Assembly (NCBI GenBank): GCA_021806045.1
Contig: JAJZDI010000017.1
Span: forward strand, 1 to 64,000
Origin: Actinomycetes bacterium
GTDB lineage: Bacteria; Actinomycetota; Acidimicrobiia; Acidimicrobiales; RAAP-2
DNA length: 64,000 nt
Reading direction: 5' to 3'
Under the pieces are notes generated by a model. That model saw only the letters and a program-made list of their open reading frames with translations, did no database searches and was not told where the DNA came from. Shown piece by piece: positions 59,793-64,000 of the stretch. Made by a program: the position numbers and the translations under genes. How positions within the stretch are numbered: position 1 is the first letter of the stretch; each line of letters opens with the position of its first letter.

Positions 59793-60122
59793 CTACGAGG
59801 TGAAGTAGTCCAGCCTGCTCACCCAGACGTCGGAGACGAGCAGCACGCCCGGTCGCCGGTCGAACAGGTGGCGGAGGCCGGCGATCAGGTCGTCGGCACG
59901 TTCGGAGGGCAGCACCACGATGAGCAGCGACAGGGCGTTGCGGTCGTTGAACTGCAGCCGGCCCTGGTGGTAGCCGCCGTGGCCGAGGCCCGAGACGTTG
60001 GAGACAGCGGTGAAGCCGCTGGCCCCGGCCTGGGTGACCAGTTGCTCCACCAGGGGGGCATCGGTGCCCTCCACCACCACCTCGACCTTGGTCATGGCCA
60101 TGAGCCCGGGATGATCAGGCAT
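59793..60122 (-). CDS. PII-like signalling protein linked to the DAB operon
   Basis: 109 aa. TKVEVVVEGTDAPLVEQLVTQAGASGFTAVSNVSGLGHGGYHQG resembles the beta-alpha-beta of the PII fold, with a T-loop region shorter than in GlnB and no uridylylation-type tyrosine motif. LVSDVWVSRLDYF ends the fold. Such SbtB/CPII-like proteins sense adenylates or bicarbonate beside inorganic-carbon transporters. ATG 60122 has GGAGGTGGGAG upstream and overlaps the dabA end by 8 bp. Confidence 0.78.
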   Translation of the reverse strand: MPDHPGLMAMTKVEVVVEGTDAPLVEQLVTQAGASGFTAVSNVSGLGHGGYHQGRLQFNDRNALSLLIVVLPSERADDLIAGLRHLFDRRPGVLLVSDVWVSRLDYFTS

Positions 60123-62439
60123 GGACTGCTCCCACCTCCTCCGTGTTCGACCGCTCCCATACGATCCACCGACCGCCCGGCAACCGCCTGGACCATGGTG
60201 ACCCGGGGGCGTCCCGTGCCACCAGGTGGACCCAGTCCCCGTCGAACAGGTCGCCGAGGACGGGGTTGCGGCGGATGGTCCGGTCGACCATGGCGACAGG
60301 CGCCTCCACCACCACCTGGAGCCGCAACGGCTCGTGGACGGACCGGGCGCCGTCGAAGACCGACTGGCGGGGCAGGCCGATGCGCAGGTCGCCGCCCGTC
60401 CCGGTGACGACGCCGATCCCGCCCACCACGTTGTGGACCGTCTTGTCGCCGGCGCCGAACAGCTCAGGCGCGACGGTGGAGAAGTAGTACTGGGCGTTGA
60501 TCCAGTGGGCCACCACCACCGGTGCGGTCAGAATCGTCTCCAGCGCCGTCCCGTCCGGATCGGTGGCCGCGTCATAGGAGTGGAGGAAGCACCGCCTGCC
60601 GAGGGTGACACCGGCGGTCATCCGCCGTGGACCGACGATGATCGCCGCGTTCCCGGCAAGCCCCCACTCCGGGCGCACCTGGGCCCAGTCGACTGCACGT
60701 GCGTCGACGCCGTCGGGCCCACGGGCGCCGGCGGCGCCGGGGAGGTCGGCCGACCGCTCGGCGACGAGCGCGACACGTGCGTCGGCTATCGCCCGCTCCA
60801 GCGCCTCGAGCCCTGCCAGGTGGGAGGCGGGCACCAGGTGCCGGTCGAGCACCTCGACGCGATCGGTCACCGTGTCGTGCTCGCCGGCCACGAACCAGGT
60901 GGACGGAGGGATGACGATGCCCTGGGCGGCCAGCGCGGCGCGCACCTCATCCCGGTTGAAGATGCCAGCGGCGGCACGGGCGCTCACCACACCGCGGTTC
61001 CCCCCGCAGGCACCGCAGTCGAGCGCCGAGGCGTGCGGGTTGTTGGCGCTGGTGGCACCGTGGCCGGTGAGGACGACCAGCGGCGCGAACCCCCTCACCA
61101 ACCCCATGGTCGACAGGGCCGAAGCCGCGTAGTGGACCTGCTCGTCGAGGCTCATCCCCCGGTCGCCCGCCTCGGGCACCACCTCGGTGAGGCCGGGTGA
61201 CGTGAAGCGCTGCCGGGCCCAGGAGCGCAGGCGACCGGTCCACGAGGGAGCCACCGTCCGGGCCAGGGCGGCCGCACCCAGCACGGGGCCGGTCAACTCG
61301 GCCAGGAGGAAGCTCCCGACCGGATGCTCACGCCCGGTCTCGAAGGCGGCGGCAGCGGCGCCGCGGGCAGCGAGCGCCCCGAGCGCGCGCGCCGCAGGTG
61401 CCTCCTCGCCGCCGGCCGGCACCTCGATAAGATCCACCGTCGGGCGGACGAGGACGGGGCACAGGTCGACGGTCCCCTGCGCGCCGAGCGGCCGGAAGCG
61501 TGCTGGCAGCCCGAAGAACCCGGCGAACCCGAGGGTCTCGTAGGGTCCGGCCGCCTCGAGGTGGCGCCGCATCCCCTCCGAGCGCACATCGATGCAGAAG
61601 ACGACCTGGGCGGCCGGAGGCCCGGCAGGCCGGTCGTCGGAGGGGTGGTCGAGAGCGGTCAGCAGCCAGTGGCGGAACCGGTCCTCGCAGGCGGTGAGCT
61701 CGGCCCGTTGCAACTCCCGATCCGTGTCGCGCCCACCGGGCGCCCGGACCAGTGGCGGGAGCGTGCCGGCATCCCCGAATCCCTCGGCATGGAGCGCGGC
61801 CTCGACGGTGAGGCGGACGGCCATCAGGTCCACCAGGGTGAGGCGGGGAGCGCCGGTGCCCGGAGGCGCCCACTGGGCGCGCCACTTGGCCAGCCCCGCC
61901 CATCCCGGCGTACGGGCCAGGCGGGCGGCGAAGGCCGGGGTGCGCCCACCATCTCCGACGCCTAGTTCCACCAGCGCGACGGCGATGGCGGCCACCGCGT
62001 CCGCCGGCGCAGCGGCCATGGCGGCGCGACCGCGCTGGCCGGCCAGCCGCCGGGCGGCCGGGTCGTGACCGATCCCGGCCCGCCACGCCGCGTAGAAACC
62101 CCCGCCATCGCCCCCGCCGAGCTGACCGCCCACGAACGCCGCGCACCAGCGGGTGAGCACGTCATCGACGGCCGCCGATGCCCGGTCCGCGGCCCGGGAC
62201 CCGTCAGGAGTCGGGTCGGACCGGCCAGGCGGCACGGGGTCGCCGGTCGGGGTGGGTGGCGGCAGCAGGTCGGCGCCGTAGAGCGTGCCGGCCGCCTCGA
62301 TGGCCCCGTCGAACCCCAGCTGCCGGAGGTCCCAGAGGGGATTGACGGCGACGAAGGTGGAGAGCGGCCACATGGGCGGGACGAAGCGGGCCGCCTCGTC
62401 CAGGTCGACGAGGATGGATGCCCGTGACGGGCCGGTCAT
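60115..62439 (-). CDS. dabA: DAB inorganic carbon transporter subunit DabA (DUF2309)
   Basis: 774 aa. Starts in family style (FVPPMWPLSTFVAVNPLWDL). The carbonic-anhydrase-like zinc site is complete: Cys and Asp in VVFCIDVRSE (about 283 and 285), His in LTGHGATSANN (about 459) and Cys in LDCGACGG (about 474); the 15-residue His-to-Cys spacing is that of characterised DabA. Peripheral subunit that hydrates CO2 to bicarbonate. ATG 62439 preferred; GTG 62448 would overlap dabB. Confidence 0.92.
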   Translation of the reverse strand: MTGPSRASILVDLDEAARFVPPMWPLSTFVAVNPLWDLRQLGFDGAIEAAGTLYGADLLPPPTPTGDPVPPGRSDPTPDGSRAADRASAAVDDVLTRWCAAFVGGQLGGGDGGGFYAAWRAGIGHDPAARRLAGQRGRAAMAAAPADAVAAIAVALVELGVGDGGRTPAFAARLARTPGWAGLAKWRAQWAPPGTGAPRLTLVDLMAVRLTVEAALHAEGFGDAGTLPPLVRAPGGRDTDRELQRAELTACEDRFRHWLLTALDHPSDDRPAGPPAAQVVFCIDVRSEGMRRHLEAAGPYETLGFAGFFGLPARFRPLGAQGTVDLCPVLVRPTVDLIEVPAGGEEAPAARALGALAARGAAAAAFETGREHPVGSFLLAELTGPVLGAAALARTVAPSWTGRLRSWARQRFTSPGLTEVVPEAGDRGMSLDEQVHYAASALSTMGLVRGFAPLVVLTGHGATSANNPHASALDCGACGGNRGVVSARAAAGIFNRDEVRAALAAQGIVIPPSTWFVAGEHDTVTDRVEVLDRHLVPASHLAGLEALERAIADARVALVAERSADLPGAAGARGPDGVDARAVDWAQVRPEWGLAGNAAIIVGPRRMTAGVTLGRRCFLHSYDAATDPDGTALETILTAPVVVAHWINAQYYFSTVAPELFGAGDKTVHNVVGGIGVVTGTGGDLRIGLPRQSVFDGARSVHEPLRLQVVVEAPVAMVDRTIRRNPVLGDLFDGDWVHLVARDAPGSPWSRRLPGGRWIVWERSNTEEVGAVHA

Positions 62440-62444
62440 GGCGC

Positions 62445-64000
62445 TCACCGTCCTGCCGGCGCACCGGCGCCGGCCAGACCGGGGATCAACCGGCCCGACG
62501 GCTGGCGGGCGGGCCGTAGCGGGGGCCGCTCGATGGCACGACCGGACGGTGCGAGACCGGCCAGGCCGGCCCCGGCCAACCGGCGGCTGAGGCGCGGGTC
62601 GCGTTCCAGGGCCGAGAGCACCACACCCCCGACCGCCACGGCCACCAGCCATCCGGGAGCCAGCGCCCCATGTCCCCCGGCGGGGAGGGCGGGCCCGAAC
62701 CAGGCGGCGGCTCCGGCGGCGACCGCCCCGTACGCGGCCGACCCGGCCAGCAGGGTCACGGCGGCGAGGGCGTTCGCCCCGCGTGAGGCGGGCCGGTGCT
62801 CCCACCACCCCCACGCCGCCGCCCCGGCTGCGAAGGCGACGAACAGGGCGATGACGGCGACGAGCGACCCGCCGGCCATGCCGGCCCAGCGCATGACAGC
62901 GGCACTGGTGGCCGCCGCGGCCAGTGAGGCGATCACGGCGGCGGCGGCAGCCGGCAGGGAGCTCCCCGGGCGCCGAACCCCGGCACCGGCACCAGCCACC
63001 GGAGGGGTGACCCGAGCCCCGGAGCCGAGGAAGAGGCTGGCCTTGTAGAACCCGTGGCCGATCAGGTGCGTCGTCGCCGCCACCGGTGCGCCCACCGCCA
63101 CCTCGGCCAGCATGAACCCCATCTGGGCCATGGTGGACAGGGCGAGCCCGCCCTTGGCATCGGGACGCCGTCCGGCGGCCACGCCGGCGGCCACCGCGCT
63201 CCCCCCGGCCACGGCGAACAGGAGGATGGTGACAGGCAGGCTCGAGGTCGCCACCGGGTCGAGGCGGAGGAGCAGGATCCCCCCGCCGTTGACCACCCCG
63301 GCGTGGAGGAGCGCGGATGCCGGCGTGGGGGCGGCCACCGTCTTCGGCAGCCACGTGCGGAACGGCCCCTGGCCGCAGCGTGACAGCGCAGCCGCGCCGA
63401 CGAGGGCGGCGACCACCAGGCCCAGGTGGCCGGGCAGCCGGGTGGAGGCGGCCAGCCGGTTCCCCAGGTTCACGTCGCCCGCGTGCCAGACGATCACGGT
63501 GACGGCTCCTACCAGAGCCAGGTCGCCGACGGCGAACGACCGGAGCATGGACCGGCGTGCGCCGGCGACCTGGGGGAGGTCGGTGCGGTACCCGGCGGTC
63601 ACCACGAAGGCGGCCCCGGCCAGTACCCACCCGACGGTCATCAGCACGATGTCTCCGGCCGCAGTGACCAGGACCATGCCGGCGACGACGATGCTGGCGC
63701 TGCGCGCGAAGACGGCCCCCCGCGGGTCGTCCTGGAGGTAGCGGCGGGCGAAGGAGAGGACCACGGCCCCGACCAGTGCGACGAGGACCAGCACGGCCAC
63801 GGTGAAGTGGTCGAGCAGGAGGCCCGTGCCGCCCAGGTGGGGGAGGGCGGACCGGGCGGTGCCGCCCATCGCCACCCCCGCCAGCGCGATGACGGCACCG
63901 ACGGCACCGACGGCAGCACCCCGCGCCGCCCGGCGGAGAGCGGTGCGGGTGTCGCGTCCGGCCATTGCTGCGCCGGCCAGGGGACCGGCCAGGGCCACCA
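62445..64000 (-). CDS. dabB: DAB transporter membrane subunit DabB (cut by or ending near the right window edge)
   Basis: At least 517 aa with about 14 hydrophobic helices. NuoL/MrpA-like proton-conducting family: LPKTVAAPTPASALLHAGVVNGGGILLLRLDP and KGGLALSTMAQMGFMLAEVAVG, plus THLIGHGFYKASLFLGSG. In DAB systems this subunit couples cation flow to bicarbonate formation by DabA. A GTG at 63998 could be the start, but the frame stays open to the edge, so the N-terminus is uncertain. Five bases separate its stop from the dabA start. Confidence 0.88.
   Translation of the reverse strand, partial: VALAGPLAGAAMAGRDTRTALRRAARGAAVGAVGAVIALAGVAMGGTARSALPHLGGTGLLLDHFTVAVLVLVALVGAVVLSFARRYLQDDPRGAVFARSASIVVAGMVLVTAAGDIVLMTVGWVLAGAAFVVTAGYRTDLPQVAGARRSMLRSFAVGDLALVGAVTVIVWHAGDVNLGNRLAASTRLPGHLGLVVAALVGAAALSRCGQGPFRTWLPKTVAAPTPASALLHAGVVNGGGILLLRLDPVATSSLPVTILLFAVAGGSAVAAGVAAGRRPDAKGGLALSTMAQMGFMLAEVAVGAPVAATTHLIGHGFYKASLFLGSGARVTPPVAGAGAGVRRPGSSLPAAAAAVIASLAAAATSAAVMRWAGMAGGSLVAVIALFVAFAAGAAAWGWWEHRPASRGANALAAVTLLAGSAAYGAVAAGAAAWFGPALPAGGHGALAPGWLVAVAVGGVVLSALERDPRLSRRLAGAGLAGLAPSGRAIERPPLRPARQPSGRLIPGLAGAGAPAGR

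Follow-up and report, generated by a model that had tools for sequence, protein, structure and literature searches.

A CPII-type PII-like gene overlaps dabA in the DAB inorganic-carbon operon of an actinobacterial genome with no detected Rubisco

DAB inorganic-carbon pumps combine a cytoplasmic subunit resembling beta-carbonic anhydrase, DabA, with a NuoL-like membrane subunit, DabB. DAB2 (DAC) of Halothiobacillus neapolitanus is a heterodimer, the zinc ligands, Asp-Arg dyad, finger glutamate and tunnel residues of its DabA2 subunit have been described, and DAB pumps occur in heterotrophs too (PMC13144422). In a second bicarbonate-supplying system, the cyanobacterial SbtA-SbtB, the PII-like protein SbtB inserts its T-loop into the transporter SbtA; SbtB and other PII proteins are trimers (PMC8352866). 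A further PII-like protein, CPII of Thiomonas intermedia K12, is represented by six crystal entries (5d4l, 5d4n, 5d4o, 5d4p, 5drk, 5ds7), the titles of which name ADP/AMP and bicarbonate as ligands. Here we describe an operon of dabB, dabA and a CPII-type PII-like gene in an Actinomycetes bacterium (Acidimicrobiia; assembly GCA_021806045.1). The analysed window spans positions 1 to 64,000 of the 67,585-base contig JAJZDI010000017.1, in a genome of 3.1 Mb that is 97.5% complete in 43 contigs.

The first-pass annotation of this DNA had recognized a DAB system, and homology to both solved subunits agrees. The dabA product matches PF10070 (E 1.2e-223, 745 bits; E 5e-214 in the whole-genome search) and aligns to DabA2 (9rd0_A, E 7e-107). 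The dabB product matches Proton_antipo_M (PF00361, E 3e-30) and DabB2 (9rd0_B, E 8e-27). A PF10070 protein and a NuoL-like PF00361 protein are encoded together, as in DAB/DAC systems. The Cys-His-Cys zinc ligands and the Asp-Arg dyad of DabA2 are kept in the alignment. The FCIDVRSE block (Cys351/Asp353/Arg355) is identical, and His524, Cys539, the finger Glu444 and Leu658 of DabA2 correspond to H460, C475, E371 and L594 of the host protein, with the Glu444-E371 match only moderately sure because that stretch has low identity. The other mapped DabA2 residues (A376, F378, H585, D590, L629, R653 and W656) are all kept as well, and the zinc residues retain the spacing that the annotation had called intact. 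Judged by homology, the genes make up a DAB (DAC-type) operon for the accumulation of inorganic carbon, which would be expected to carry out such transport. It shares both subunits and the mapped active-site residues with H. neapolitanus DAB2, and differs in having the added PII gene and a host without detected Rubisco.

The three genes form one operon. On the same strand, a gap of 5 bp separates the dabB stop from dabA. The upstream reading that the annotation had proposed located the GTG start of dabB 28 bp past the window edge, behind GGAGGAGGG, which gives a product of 527 aa as read from the sequence. The dabA stop and the PII start share exactly 8 bp (ATGCCTGA), and GGAGGAGGTGGGAG precedes the PII start as its own ribosome binding site; both the overlap and this site had been noted in the annotation. 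A search for a promoter-like site by the PII gene found none.

The third gene encodes a protein of the PII superfamily (P-II, PF00543, E 1.9e-16). Its only significant matches among PDB sequences were two CPII sequences of T. intermedia (5d4n, E 7e-17; 5d4l, E 8e-17; next match, E 0.23), at about 35% identity. A profile of 35 such sequences matched CPII at E 1e-32, followed by archaeal PII (5e-6) and SbtB (0.035). The predicted fold gave the same answer. Its best match was 5d4p, CPII with ADP and bicarbonate (E 2e-11, template-modelling (TM) score 0.83), and the first 14 matches were all CPII chains, so that the fold prediction that could have placed the protein outside the superfamily did the opposite. 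Of the solved PII proteins, CPII is thus the nearest by sequence and fold, and it is similar in length. The suggested control by adenylates or bicarbonate is in keeping with this homology, as CPII was crystallised with ADP/AMP and bicarbonate.

Other identities were considered and rejected. SbtB has a related fold and a like logic, in that a PII-like protein is encoded together with a transporter that supplies bicarbonate, but its profile match is poor, the transporter differs, the present gene is encoded with dabA rather than SbtA, and the C-terminal CGPxGC of some SbtBs was not seen in the PII sequences examined. Canonical PII (GlnB/GlnK) belongs to the same superfamily, and its Gly-x-Thr and a C-terminal-region Arg, which have nucleotide roles, align with the host protein. 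Full-length similarity was lacking: the best canonical-PII profile matches (E 5e-6 to 6e-4) spanned only about positions 8-52, longer ones were weaker, and the host's other, canonical PII (contig C1) gave no BLASTP alignment with the 109-aa protein at E<=100. The NCBIfam model 'PG0541 transporter-associated' matched 25 of the 35 profile members; the window protein is not filed there because it scored 20 against a cut-off of 45. We call it CPII-type, and not carboxysome-associated PII, because no Rubisco or bacterial microcompartment (BMC) genes were found in the host.

The overlap with dabA is conserved and is not due to chance. We scanned a collection of 84,980 species, each represented by a single genome, using six aligned dabA-linked PII proteins. 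The scan returned 37 loci, all of them in Actinomycetota where a lineage is given in the record (Acidimicrobiaceae, Solirubrobacterales, Nocardia, Rhodococcus, Microbacterium, Cryobacterium, Arthrobacter, Agromyces, Geodermatophilus, Dactylosporangium and others), and was confined to two peptide patterns, which favour the dabA-linked subfamily because they came from those six genes found beside dabA. In all 36 judgeable loci the gene immediately upstream, in the same orientation, was dabA; the remaining locus, L123, starts at the PII gene. These 36 are not independent events: near-copies occur among them (L117/L118; for the PII gene also L122/L123), and four loci appear to come from genomes of the class set below (G059, G063, G161, G231). 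The junctions comprised 32 overlaps of 1-8 bp (-8 in 15 loci, -4 in 14, -1 in 3), three gaps of 2-16 bp, and an unexplained value of -305 in L122 that was left out of the short-overlap count; the script took the start codon closest to where one was expected, a choice that favours overlap. Of the 296 class genomes, the PII profile matched seven at E<=1e-8, and the six strong matches were all beside dabA. The possibility that the PII gene is a chance open reading frame was rejected.

The weaker seventh match (G154, E 5e-13; L145) lies just downstream of an SbtA-like gene, as SbtB would, so that this class appears to have a pair resembling SbtA-SbtB. Horizontal transfer of DAB-PII is suggested by nearly identical DAB-PII or PII genes across species and genera and by two DAB-PII operons carried on plasmids (L117/L118, L120/L122/L123, L167, L169).

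The pairing of dabA with a PII gene is of a known kind, since plasmid 1 of Nitrobacter hamburgensis has such an operon and a figure legend in PMC4499774 names HAM1, sbtA, sbtB/P-II, nuoL and DUF2309 among the genes of alpha-carboxysome loci. The Nitrobacter plasmid (L168:6426-19231) carries dabB, a hypothetical gene, dabA and the PII gene twice in tandem, with 4-bp overlaps. The tandem adjoins a LysR gene, cbbLS and csoS2 and lies ahead of the Rubisco/carboxysome genes, and its PII protein is 37% identical to the host's over 97 residues. The two Nitrobacter PII genes carry the same protein accession, as do the two hypothetical genes.

What is new is the setting: a host without a Rubisco or BMC-shell match, PII genomes mostly without a Rubisco match, and a larger module that includes a winged-helix gene and DUF6671. 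No Rubisco large subunit (PF00016; 5 of 14 controls positive) and no BMC shell protein (PF00936; 2 of 14 controls positive) was found in the host genome, so service to Rubisco or a carboxysome was rejected there; the carboxysome association of CPII is seen in Nitrobacter. In 34 genomes with the PII gene, four had strong Rubisco matches (E <1e-100), three had weaker ones (7e-64 to 7e-15) that may be Rubisco-like proteins, and 27 had none; many are metagenome-assembled genomes of untold completeness. These 34 are the host, five of its class and 28 behind named loci (including that of L123, without dabA in view), with the genomes of L103, L105, L110, L111 and L115 left out. Thiomonas CPII differs from the host protein in this setting, as the host has no detected Rubisco or BMC shell genes and has a winged-helix gene, DUF6671, purK and purE as neighbours. 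In searches of mostly open-access literature, none of the matches listed reported a link of DAB with a winged-helix regulator, with heterotrophs, or with PII or CPII.

We consider it more likely than not that the operon encodes a CO2-to-bicarbonate pump driven by the proton motive force and gated by the CPII-type sensor. DabB would admit protons and so drive the one-way conversion of CO2 to cytosolic bicarbonate by DabA. The CPII-type protein may read adenylates together with bicarbonate. By analogy with SbtA-SbtB, its flexible T-loop would dock it on DabAB and block the pump, throttling it under ample bicarbonate or low energy. Translation of the PII gene would be coupled to dabA by the shared stop/start region, and we propose that sensor and pump are in this way made in step. 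In this host, where no Rubisco was found, PurK and other carboxylases are the probable users of the bicarbonate. As the operon recurs in many relatives, these results suggest that bacteria not living by CO2 fixation may also meter their bicarbonate supply.

Several observations weigh against this explanation, in addition to the leaning of the scan. The main doubts are the flexibility of the T-loop and the mismatch of partners. In the PII model, confidence is lowest in the T-loop (residues 53-59 have a predicted local distance difference test score (pLDDT) <50), and the docking geometry is doubtful because DAB2 is a heterodimer while SbtB and other PII proteins are trimers. The sensor is also optional. 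In the class, only 6 of 19 genomes with DabA have the PII gene. In a sample of the phylum it was present in 2 of 15 further DabA genomes and missing from 13 within 1.5-kb flanks, some of them cut by contig ends; in these 13 loci dabA precedes dabB in 11, dabB comes first in one, and one is not judgeable. PII-bearing DabAs do not form one clade and require at least six changes in a quick tree of 49 rows, with 10 short fragments left out. Strong Rubisco matches were found in 5 of the 13 class DabA genomes without the PII gene (G014, G134, G214, G225, G269; weak in G138, which also lacks the gene) and in 0 of the 6 with it, so that in this class the PII-less DAB goes with Rubisco more often. Finally, the host has a beta-carbonic anhydrase, and DAB need therefore not be its only source of bicarbonate.

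It is less likely, though the best of the alternatives, that the PII protein bypasses DabAB and signals bicarbonate or adenylate status to the winged-helix protein, DUF6671 or PurK, being co-transcribed with dabAB only because the same cue is needed. Linkage alone is no proof of partnership, the operon is often accompanied by the winged-helix protein and DUF6671, and two plasmid records label the PII protein 'transcriptional regulator'. Against this, the overlap is with dabA, which is upstream in every judgeable locus, whereas DUF6671 is present in only 14 of 37 PII loci (several ended by contig ends) and the winged-helix gene in 25 of the 28 with dabB in view; in addition, the target of SbtB is the transporter encoded in the same operon (PMC8352866). 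A second alternative keeps the PII protein as a gate but has the pump import bicarbonate by cation-coupled symport, as in MpsAB, a DAC homologue from Staphylococcus aureus and a proposed Na+/bicarbonate symporter (PMC13144422). The retention of the zinc ligands, the Asp-Arg dyad and the mapped DabA2 tunnel residues, for which MpsA was not compared, makes this improbable. Service to an overlooked autotrophic pathway, behind an assembly gap or in fixation without Rubisco, is very improbable: a gap is possible at this completeness and contig number, the Nitrobacter operon adjoins cbbLS and csoS2, and seven of the PII genomes have strong or weaker Rubisco matches, but the remaining 27 of 34 have none and the host has no detected Rubisco large subunit or BMC shell protein, other fixation pathways not having been searched.

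The winged-helix protein, encoded divergently from dabB, would most likely repress the operon through TTCACGA-type sites over the dabB promoter. A strong promoter-like site, TTGACA-N16-AATAAT (11 of 12), precedes dabB, and a TTCACGA falls between its hexamers (Table 1). In 10 of 10 acidimicrobial winged-helix/dabB regions TCACGA/TCGTGA was present, with 18 copies against 2.15 +/- 1.43 in shuffles, a significance that is overstated because the motif was chosen after inspecting the sequences and the sequences are related. TCGTGT sites also lie between SbtA and the winged-helix genes in L097 and L100. In nine non-acidimicrobial regions the TCACGA form was not enriched (4 against 2.05 shuffled) and the spaced pair was absent. 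In the set of 14 further winged-helix regions to which L097 and L100 belong, some partly coding and compared without shuffles, related hexamers occurred in eight and were missing from six.

Table 1. Features of the DAB-PII locus. Positions beyond the window are numbered on the contig, continuing the window numbering.
Feature	Position	Strand	Remarks
CPII-type PII-like gene	60122-59793	-	109 aa; PF00543
dabA, cytoplasmic beta-carbonic-anhydrase-like subunit	62439-60115	-	774 aa; PF10070
dabB, NuoL-like membrane subunit	62445 (stop) to GTG 64028	-	PF00361; start read from sequence
dabA/PII overlap (ATGCCTGA)	60115..60122	-	8 bp; sequence
Promoter-like site	contig 64097-64070	-	beyond window
Winged-helix gene	contig 64144-64500	+	118 aa; beyond window
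DUF6671 gene	contig 65447-64563	-	beyond window
purK	contig 66586-65411	-	beyond window; purE farther on

The annotation had also proposed looking for CO2-fixation genes upstream of dabB. The genes found there are the winged-helix gene, DUF6671, purK and purE, in a host without a detected Rubisco large subunit. On the other side, gyrB and gyrA adjoin the operon and converge with it. The location next to gyrA, near oriC, had been called unusual, and it was seen only in this genome: GyrA was found at no DAB locus of any other genome within the flanks fetched, and the adjacency was rejected as a feature of the system.

The winged-helix gene was near dab in 13 of 21 stretches from the class. Winged-helix matches at E<=0.001 occurred in 92 of 296 class genomes. 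Among the best 30 of these loci (L072-L101), a set that favours DAB neighbours because it was ranked by similarity to a DAB-adjacent query, 19 had an inorganic-carbon gene within 1.5 kb: 11 had dab, five others purK/purE, two SbtA and one carbonic anhydrase. L092 was dropped from this count (20 to 19), since its 'DabB', which looks Mrp-like, had no dabA match at the locus. PurK consumes bicarbonate, and in 5 of 37 loci (L103, L105, L109, L114, L128) the genes immediately after dabA-PII are purK-purE, which ties DAB to purine carboxylation. On a Mycolicibacterium plasmid the order is winged helix, TerC, CBS and DUF6671, then dabB, dabA, PII and carbonic anhydrase; a carbonic anhydrase gene also follows the PII gene in G359. 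No report linking purK with carbonic anhydrase was among the matches listed from mostly open-access literature.

DUF6671 was present in 15 and DabA in 19 of the 296 class genomes, with 11 having both (Fisher p 3e-12, uncorrected for kinship), and DUF6671 was near dab in 8 of 21 class stretches. Four DUF6671 genomes lack DabA; in two of these SbtA is near, with a winged-helix gene between in G295 and at about 2 kb in G291. In the phylum sample DUF6671 occurred in 7 of 336 genomes, and the one outside the class (G382) showed no DabA. A relative (L113:1443-2288, - strand) was modelled at pLDDT 93. Its N-terminal part has the predicted fold of the ITPase/HAM1/Maf superfamily, including YjjX: Foldseek matched 2j4e (E 8e-4) and YjjX (E 1e-3), with a TM score of only about 0.3 to the whole model, and VIA gave Z 12.8 to 1vp2 (126 aligned, root-mean-square deviation 3.1). 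An NTP pyrophosphatase activity is putative. Eight invariant cysteines are common to 11 aligned members. Together with HAM1 at alpha-carboxysome loci, the modelled fold hints at a recurring tie of ITPase-fold proteins to inorganic carbon. A search of an open-access library found no mention of DUF6671.

These observations can be joined in a wider reading, which is possible but which we offer only tentatively. Actinomycetota may hold a general, undescribed regulon of bicarbonate homeostasis for cells without Rubisco. One winged-helix family would read inorganic-carbon status and control DAB, SbtA, carbonic anhydrase and purK/purE, while a CPII-type sensor tied to DabA gates the pump. DUF6671, an ITPase-fold cysteine-ribbon protein, would act on a nucleotide signal of carbon status, and DAB would feed carboxylases of purine synthesis and other pathways, and not Rubisco. 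CPII would then have been a DAB partner in origin and not a carboxysome protein.

With a sensor gene that overlaps dabA at most of its loci, in genomes mostly without a Rubisco match, what DAB feeds and what controls it in heterotrophs become testable with one three-gene cassette. CPII, named after the carboxysome, is recast as a likely DAB partner, and two little-known families, the winged-helix protein and DUF6671, become candidates for a part in how bacteria control inorganic carbon. A compact pump that turns CO2 into bicarbonate and brings its own switch would also be of use in engineering.

Two other kinds of gene recurred at these loci. An isocitrate-dehydrogenase-like gene was seen in winged-helix, DUF6671 or DAB loci (L037, L065, L067, L076, L086, L106, L111, L146), and genes resembling cation P-type ATPases adjoin the winged-helix gene in L081, L089 and L099.
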